A DNA stretch of 51,724 bases from Candidatus Zixiibacteriota bacterium (GTDB lineage Bacteria > Zixibacteria > MSB-5A5 > GN15 > FEB-12): contig CP070777.1 in the NCBI GenBank assembly GCA_020346225.1, positions 141,599 to 193,322 on the forward strand. Direction: 5' to 3'. Below are positions 3,681-8,457 of the stretch, piece by piece. The notes beneath the pieces were generated by a model. It saw nothing but the letters and a program-made list of their open reading frames with translations. It was not told where the DNA came from and did not search any database. Within the stretch, counting starts at the first letter, position 1; each line of letters opens with the position of its first letter. The translations under genes were made by a program, and so were the position numbers.

Positions 3681-3979
3681 TATGACTACCTCCCGAATGC
3701 CTGAGAGGGGTCCTCCCTACCGTTGGTGCGCGAGTGATGGGCACAGCGACCTATTGGCCCTGACCGGATCAGATACCTGGGCGACAGGTCTCGTGATGAT
3801 GTAAATATAGCAGAATCCCGGTGTGATCACCAAACCTATTTTGGCCCACACCGTTGCCGACCGCTGGTCAGGGTCGACCACGATCTGGCCTAAGTTCTTG
3901 TGCCGCAAGGTGAGTAAGTCAGGTTCTCACAGCCCCGCTCCGGGGCGATGGGCTGCCGGGCTGGATGTTGAATCTTTGC
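3681..3979. other. Intergenic stretch, no convincing gene
   Basis: This stretch lies between two minus-strand genes. A 63-codon minus-strand frame (3717-3908) exists, but it has no ribosome site and no family resemblance, so I leave it out. No strong terminator hairpin was found. Confidence 0.4.
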
Positions 3980-7337: not shown

Positions 7338-7416
7338 AGTTTAGAGCGAACATCAGTATTATAGTCAATAGAGCAGAAGCGAATATAATCGCCGAAAATG
7401 CGCAAGTGAGGAACGT

Positions 7417-7818
7417 ATGAGTTCTATCAAGATGATCAGCGAGGCCGAGGCGACGGGTAAAACCAGGTCGATCTACGAAGACATCAAGGCGACTCTGGGC
7501 ATCGATTTCGTTCCAAACATGTACCGGGCGATGGCGGTCAAACCGGATTTCCTGGAGGCAAACTGGAACAAGGTCAAGGCGGTCATGCAGGCTCCAGGCA
7601 AACTTGACACTATCACCAAGGAAATAATTGCCGTGGCCGTGTCGGCGGTCATGGGCTGCCGGTACTGACTCACCGTACACACTTCCGCGGTGCGGAAACT
7701 TGGACTGGATGATGAGGGTATTGTCGAGTTGATGGCGGTAGTCGACCTTTTCAGCGGGTTTAACAAACTGATGGATGGGCTGCAGGTGGAAATGGATGAA
7801 AAGCCGTGGTACGGCTGA
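7417..7818 (+). CDS. AhpD/carboxymuconolactone-decarboxylase-like selenoprotein (Sec84 encoded by TGA)
   Basis: Read conventionally, this frame stops at TGA 7666-7668 after 83 codons, in the middle of the AhpD redox motif. Read through, it continues in frame for 49 more codons to a TGA at 7816-7818. The result is 133 residues with normal AhpD-family sequence on both sides. The TGA stands at the second Cys position: Cys81-Arg-Tyr-Sec84, then His88, matching CxxC-x3-H of AhpD-like peroxidases. A hairpin downstream (7683-7697) looks like a bacterial SECIS. AhpD-fold selenoproteins are known from environmental bacteria. The expected role is reduction of peroxides or another thiol/selenol redox reaction in the cytoplasm. 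The usual Glu three residues before the first Cys is replaced by Val. The alternative is a nonsense mutation of a Cys codon. The intact downstream frame and the hairpin argue against it, but selA/B/C/D are not in this window. Confidence 0.82.
7683..7697 (+). promoter_or_regulatory. Candidate bacterial SECIS apical stem-loop
   Basis: TTCCGC pairs perfectly with GCGGAA around a GGT loop. The loop begins 20 nt after the TGA at 7666-7668. A loop with G at its first positions (GGU, as in the E. coli fdhF element) about 20 nt beyond the codon is what SelB recognition of bacterial SECIS elements requires. It lies within the coding sequence, as bacterial SECIS elements do. Found by eye; no folding was computed. 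Confidence 0.7.
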
Positions 7819-7935
7819 GGCTGAGAATCACGAATGCCGTGAGCATTCCTGAAAACCCGGCACCCTGATTCGCGGGGAGATATGGAATAGATATGTCGCA
7901 TACCAGTCAGCTAGTGATACAACAGGAGGTAGTCG

Positions 7936-8457
7936 ATGCCATTCATTCTGAAAGCGATCGATGACACGTCGGCGTATGAACAGTTTAAGTCCGTACTTAT
8001 CGTACCGTGCAGATTTTGTCCGGCTGTAAGTGCCGCTGTCAAGAATAACGAACCATACCTTCAGCCCTTTTTCGAACTCTTTAAAACAAAATCGTATGAA
8101 CGATTCATTGCGGACCTGAAAACCCGGCTGCAAAGAAAACGAATCAAGACAGACATATTTAAGAGCTCGTGGATTCACCAATTCGTACTGTGTATGTGGA
8201 CGGAACGAAGACGCAAGGCCCTTAAGAAACTTGCCGGCAAGTACGACGCGCTGATTGTCCTGGGATGCGAAGCGGCAGTACAGACCATTAAGGATGCGGT
8301 CGAACCAAATTCATGCGAGGTTCTTCAGGGAGTTGAGACGGAGGGGATAATGAGTATTCAACCGAGGTTCAATCTTCCCTGTAACCTGTCGCTGGAACTT
8401 GAGAGCGTTTCTCGGTACAAGTATCTGGGGACCCAGGAAGTGGCAAATGCAGGTTAA
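7936..8457 (+). CDS. Cys-containing protein of unknown function, faintly MetV/MTHFR_C-like
   Basis: This 173-residue protein has no signal or membrane segment. A strong AGGAGGT precedes the ATG. Five of its Cys residues (25, 28, 86, 111 and 149) lie in short motifs: 'VPCRFCPAV', 'FVLCMW', 'ALIVLGCEAAVQT' and 'NLPCNL'. The third resembles the 'CGxGVQT' motif of the zinc/iron-sulfur MetV-type domain found beside methylenetetrahydrofolate reductases, but the overall similarity is weak and the usual run of C-terminal cysteines is missing. It sits 117 bp after the selenoprotein gene on the same strand. Function is unassigned. Confidence 0.65.
   Translation: MPFILKAIDDTSAYEQFKSVLIVPCRFCPAVSAAVKNNEPYLQPFFELFKTKSYERFIADLKTRLQRKRIKTDIFKSSWIHQFVLCMWTERRRKALKKLAGKYDALIVLGCEAAVQTIKDAVEPNSCEVLQGVETEGIMSIQPRFNLPCNLSLELESVSRYKYLGTQEVANAG

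Follow-up and report, generated by a model that had tools for sequence, protein, structure and literature searches.

An AhpD-like bacterial gene with two in-frame UGA codons, a probable double selenoprotein with a candidate SECIS element in its 3′ UTR

The window analyzed here, a stretch of 51,724 nucleotides, contains on its forward strand a frame (7417-7818; MSSIKM...MGCRY-UGA-LTVHTSAV...KPWYG) with one internal TGA at 7666-7668, which raises the question of what this codon stands for and where the product ends. The preliminary description proposed a selenoprotein with selenocysteine (Sec) at the second Cys of an AhpD-type CxxC-x3-H motif, preceded by 83 residues and followed by 49 codons in register up to the TGA at 7816-7818. 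These positions are correct, but the reading frame very probably continues past 7818, the proper end according to that description; the terminal TGA is itself likely to encode Sec, served by a SECIS element of its own. The features discussed below are:

7408..7411, forward strand: likely ribosome-binding site GAGG, 5 nt ahead of the ATG (from the sequence)
7417..7824, forward strand: predicted coding sequence of an AhpD-like double selenoprotein of 135 residues, with UGA84 and UGA134 as Sec and the true stop TGA at 7822-7824
7666..7668, forward strand: UGA84, very probably the Sec of a C81-x-x-U84-x3-H88 active site (the window and its 26 closest loci all have TGA, the related clade has Cys)
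7683..7697, forward strand: SECIS 1, predicted in the coding region, TTCCGC-GGU-GCGGAA (folding, covariation, synonymous constraint)
7816..7818, forward strand: UGA134, which looks like the stop but very probably encodes another Sec at the C-terminus, KPWYG-U-G-stop (homologue comparison)
7822..7824, forward strand: probable true stop, TGA here and TGA, TAG or TAA in homologues (homologue comparison)
7832..7848, forward strand: SECIS 2, predicted in the 3′ UTR, GAAUGC-CGUGA-GCAUUC, loop 19 nt past UGA134 (scan, alignment, covariation, fold)
7936..8457, forward strand: candidate partner gene for a 173-aa CxxCP protein without Pfam family, a recurrent neighbor of the selenoprotein gene (gene-neighborhood comparison)

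The AhpD-like identity claimed for the frame is borne out by matches that run across the TGA. The Pfam CMD domain (PF02627) spans the internal codon (5.7e-18; 65.1 bits against a cut-off of 23), the AhpD core domain TIGR00778 exceeds its curated cut-off (55.3 versus 27.8 bits), and the solved AhpD-core protein 2OUW of Rhodospirillum rubrum aligns at 3.1e-24 with 35% identity. TIGR01926 (peroxidase-related enzyme; 178-position model) scores 77.1 bits, just under its cut-off of 81.8, which leaves the protein outside that family, and the NCBIfam models NF041238 (CFYUT, 30.9 bits), NF041047 (GSU3128, 25.7) and NF041537 (ArsM-AhpD, 23.1) all remain far below theirs. An AlphaFold model computed with 30 homologues as input (pLDDT 94) shows the all-helical AhpD fold and superposes on 2OUW with a TM score of 0.9. 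On the strength of this model and the family matches, the product is predicted to be an AhpD/CMD-fold protein. 2OUW shares the fold and a similar length; it differs in having Cys, not Sec, at the site, and its sequence match stops short of the tail of the window protein. A scan of 84,980 species genomes yielded 56 homologous loci, mostly from metagenome-assembled genomes related by descent, so that the counts given below represent non-independent events. Viral contigs yielded no homologues, and plasmids only relatives below 60% identity. A search of Rfam gave no family, its single match (E 2.6) being ascribed to chance.

UGA84 takes the place of the second Cys in the motif E69-x11-C81-x-Y83-U84-x3-H88. 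The proton relay of PA0269 is composed of Glu36, Cys48, Tyr50, Cys51, and His55 (PMC3141380), and the E-x11-C-x-Y/H-C-x3-H pattern recurs here with the same spacing (E69, C81, Y83, U84 with Sec for Cys, and H88). The window and 26 of the 26 closest loci of the TGA form in which codon 84 is covered have TGA there, and the next group (L042, L043, L045-L050) has TGC or TGT. According to record titles and tree labels, the TGA84 forms are spread over about ten phyla, including Zixibacteria, Gemmatimonadota, Krumholzibacteria, Acidobacteria, and KSB1, as well as Chloroflexi, Planctomycetes, deltaproteobacterial groups, and Thermoleophilia. One outcome that the preliminary description had set against its own proposal, close relatives with a decayed region behind the TGA and no Cys or Sec aligned with it, did not occur: related homologues carry Cys at the site, and mean pairwise amino-acid identity is 86% downstream of UGA84 versus 71% upstream. 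An in-frame UGA aligned with a Cys of homologues, one mark of bacterial selenoproteins, is found at position 84 and also at 134. To judge from these alignments, the AhpD-like protein very probably carries Sec at the second Cys of its active-site CxxC.

The absence of sel genes was a further point on which the proposal could have failed, and here too it stood. The host genome (3.18 Mb in one contig, 95.6% complete) has selA (503 bits) and selB (296 bits) side by side, a tRNA-Sec gene (selC, 68 bits) and selD (381 bits), the last being a Sec gene itself, as its frame contains a TGA close to the N-terminus (VSCAG-U-AAKL). A second, partial selD-like match (G000:C1:3017215-3017673, L008; model positions 159-309) has a run of N nearby. 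Two AhpC/TSA peroxiredoxin matches (G000:C1:1168584-1168982 and 1747163-1747525) also contain an in-frame TGA and are likely further selenoproteins; taken with the sel genes, they imply that the organism very probably uses Sec. Among the homologue genomes, selB exceeds the cut-off in 22 of the 24 that have the Sec form and in 4 of the 8 that have the Cys form. In both Sec-form genomes in which selB stays under the cut-off (G149 with L035 and G143 with L029) tRNA-Sec is over it, pointing to either an assembly gap or a divergent SelB.

The perfect 6-bp hairpin with a GGU loop reported behind the internal TGA is present as described, and the distance of about 20 nt given for it fits the loop, which lies 20 nt from UGA84 (the stem starts at 14 nt). 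Its fold of -11.8 kcal/mol is weak when compared with shuffles (z = -1.3); since single-sequence folding is no proof, it is covariation that supports this element. At one pair, 7 of the 27 sequences have exchanged C-G for U-A and, at another, one sequence has exchanged U-A for G-C, a covariation score that none of 500 shuffles reached. In seven sequences TCC/CGG has become TCT/CAG, leaving Ser90 unaltered while changing Arg93 to Gln, a coupling that RNA pairing therefore explains better than the protein does. In addition, synonymous codon identity is highest at codons 88-94, where it reaches 0.80; over all 7-codon windows it averages 0.47 with a standard deviation of 0.09. With the family match, this SECIS-type hairpin, the sel genes and the Cys of homologues at the site, the proposal of an AhpD-like selenoprotein with Sec in its CxxC is supported.

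The end of the gene turned out to be less simple. Codon 134 is TGA in all 27 TGA84 homologues, and codon 135 encodes Gly in 25 of them, using all four GGN codons (GGC 8, GGT 8, GGA 7, GGG 2); L041, whose frame diverges past residue 116, is excluded from these tail counts. The next stop comes directly after codon 135 in 23/27 and within four codons in 27/27, and is variously TGA (11), TAG (10), or TAA (6). Among background ORFs of the same loci TGA accounts for half of the stop codons, and of the 98 ORFs ending in TGA a single one continues with GGN and a stop. Moreover, all eight Cys homologues have Cys at position 134 (PW[YHF]G-C-[GA]). One further locus, L106 (Dehalococcoidales), combines TGA at 84 with TGT (Cys) at 134, a separate exchange at the second site; its genome (G164) holds a second copy, L121, partly masked by a run of N. 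Relatives of 176 residues (L053, L057, L059, and others) lack the C-terminal tail, which therefore belongs to the two-UGA subfamily. From this comparison, TGA 7816-7818 very probably encodes another Sec, and the product would end in ...KPWYG-Sec-Gly. Since UGA134 lies two codons ahead of the stop, termination there would give a nearly complete protein.

A second hairpin follows the gene. Alignment shows its consensus GAAUGC-CGUGN-GCAUUC, or a variant, in 27/27 homologues; in the window and nearly every homologue it lies beyond the true stop, whatever the reading frame. Its loop starts 17-21 nt past UGA134 wherever the hairpin scan picked it (at L020, L021, L029, and L035 it favored a different hairpin or reported a stem with fewer pairs). 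In the proposed register 97.5% of cells are paired, compared with at most 57% when the hairpin is slid; compensatory changes occur in four of the six pairs, and no shuffle out of 500 reached the covariation score. The fold of -8.8 is weak for a single sequence (z = -0.9). In the host genome the exact pattern is confined to a single site, at the selenoprotein gene, and in other genomes it usually occurs once per gene copy, so that a dispersed repeat can be dismissed; an intrinsic terminator is unlikely, as no T run follows the hairpin in the window. According to a 2026 review (PMC13188914), bacterial SECIS elements have a loop of 3-9 nt, a stem of 4-16 bp, a G in the first two loop positions, a spacing of 16-37 nt, and a minimum free energy of -7.5 or lower. 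Both hairpins agree with that model as given there (hairpin 1: 6 bp, GGU, 20 nt, -11.8; hairpin 2: 6 bp, CGUGA, 19 nt, -8.8). The same review locates bacterial SECIS elements within coding regions (PMC13188914), as is the case for hairpin 1, whereas hairpin 2 lies wholly past the true stop. In the window, the loop of hairpin 2 stands 19 nt behind UGA134, whereas only 13 nt separate it from the stop UGA at 7822; the latter distance falls outside the 16-37 nt of the published model (PMC13188914), which would explain why UGA134 is read and the next UGA stops.

Sequence comparison shows two UGAs with the behavior of Sec codons, each accompanied by a covarying hairpin, in a genome that has the Sec machinery. 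We thus consider it highly probable that the gene encodes an AhpD/CMD-fold redox selenoprotein with two Sec residues, UGA84 being decoded through the SECIS inside the gene and UGA134 through the one in the 3′ UTR. Three other explanations have to be weighed against this double selenoprotein. The most serious, which we nevertheless hold to be unlikely, is that UGA84 alone encodes Sec, TGA 7816-7818 being a real stop and hairpin 2 some other 3′ element involved in mRNA stability or termination. It gains some credit from the abundance of TGA, about half of the stops in the same loci, and from the survival of hairpin 2 in two homologues with Cys134, but it accounts poorly for a TGA that never varies in 27/27 while the next stop takes all three forms, for a Gly codon kept through synonymous change, for Cys aligned at 134 in 8/8 Cys homologues, and for a hairpin placed at SECIS distance with a G in its loop and, in the window, no T run after it.

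A lone stop in an otherwise open frame does have the look of a young pseudogene, and the internal TGA might be put down to a sequencing error or to a CMD gene decaying through a nonsense mutation. Conservation rules this out: the same TGA is observed across genomes (the window and 26/26 closest loci), and the strong protein constraint behind it (86% mean identity), the covarying hairpin and the complete Sec machinery make decay extremely improbable. Insertion of another amino acid, through a code in which TGA means Trp or through tRNA suppression, has the open frame in its favor and nothing beyond. About half of the long ORFs in the same loci terminate at TGA, the aligned residue is Cys and not Trp, and tRNA-Sec, selA, selB, and selD are all present, leaving this explanation scarcely any probability.

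Under the double-selenoprotein reading, SelB would decode UGA84 by means of the hairpin inside the gene and UGA134 by means of the second one in the 3′ UTR. Within the AhpD proton-relay site (E69, C81, Y83, U84, H88), Sec84 would stand for the second Cys and probably act as the catalytic selenolate, with C81 as resolving residue and H88 and E69 relaying protons. The C-terminal -Gly-Sec-Gly tail would most likely be a mobile shuttle, reducing the C81/U84 selenenylsulfide or being reduced by it, and Sec134 may hand electrons to a partner, for which the CxxCP protein of the adjacent gene is a candidate. The chemistry may be that of a peroxidase or of thiol/selenol transfer, with peroxide, a peroxiredoxin, or another disulfide as candidate substrates.

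The putative partner has six invariant residues (C25, C28, P29, C86, C111, and C127). Neither Pfam nor PDB contains a match for it at E <= 0.001, and its structural model is weak (pLDDT 64). The gene adjoins the selenoprotein gene in 10/27 loci, downstream in some and upstream in others, and it is because of this changing gene order that we argue for a link between the two. L027 and L028 add two further cases, the former with a broken copy next to it and the latter with one that a contig end truncates. Among the genomes of 41 relatives, four have the CxxCP gene and all four also have the selenoprotein, and it is found in 13 of 24 Sec-form genomes versus none of the 8 Cys-form ones, although relatedness inflates these co-occurrence counts. 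The suggestion that the Cys-rich neighborhood forms a redox cluster is supported in part: the next gene is a recurrent partner. The other Cys-rich genes in the vicinity encode a zf-HC2 (anti-sigma-like) protein, behind a sigma factor gene, and a DUF3795 protein, after the CxxCP gene.

AhpD-like CxxU selenoproteins have been known since 2005 (Sargasso Sea 2005, GOS 2008; PMC1088965, PMC2398784, and PMC13188914). The latter places the AhpD-like/CMD-like ones under TIGR01926 and PF02627 with one Sec each (PMC13188914). Like the window protein, they belong to the CMD family, have the second CxxC Cys replaced by Sec and contain a bacterial SECIS within the gene; in the available text of that review, the examples have no C-terminal Sec or 3′-UTR SECIS described, whereas both are predicted here. 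The AhpD-related proteins of NF041238, NF041047, and NF041537 (the last with several Sec) also have CxxU, in architectures that differ from this one. In the open-access papers searched, we found no report of a C-terminal Sec in the AhpD-like family or of a 3′-UTR bacterial SECIS. Mammalian thioredoxin reductase ends in Gly-Cys-Sec-Gly, with a penultimate Sec, a SECIS downstream of the stop and a tail that exchanges electrons with the enzyme's own redox center. The penultimate Sec and the SECIS past the stop are common to both, a likeness of logic only, thioredoxin reductase being an unrelated flavoprotein with a eukaryotic SECIS. Overall, these genes quite probably represent a widespread bacterial AhpD-like subfamily combining a CxxU Sec with a penultimate -Gly-Sec-Gly decoded via a SECIS wholly in the 3′ UTR, that is, a convergent tail resembling that of thioredoxin reductase, with a previously undescribed CxxCP partner. 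If true, a family known for one Sec would turn out to contain an enzyme with two, one of them on a mobile tail, and a natural case of a bacterial SECIS acting from past the stop codon would run against the general statement that these elements lie in coding regions. It would also mean that an apparent stop at a gene end can hide a C-terminal Sec missed by searches restricted to internal UGAs. The CxxCP gene provides a testable partner of unknown family.

In the tree, the Cys clade is nested within the TGA forms with moderate support, which may point to a joint loss of both Sec in this clade. His88, otherwise conserved and catalytic, is Tyr in its members L042, L043, and L045-L050. Hairpin 2 persists in two Cys134 homologues, L042 and L106, where we read it as vestigial, although it could serve another function; its retention in the Cys form L042 fits a recent loss of Sec. 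L042 also has, at 3915-3970 and behind an unrelated TGA-ended ORF, a second copy of the Cys-form tail and hairpin (WFGCGGH-stop-TTGAATGCCGTGAGCATTC), perhaps the remnant of a duplicated gene end.
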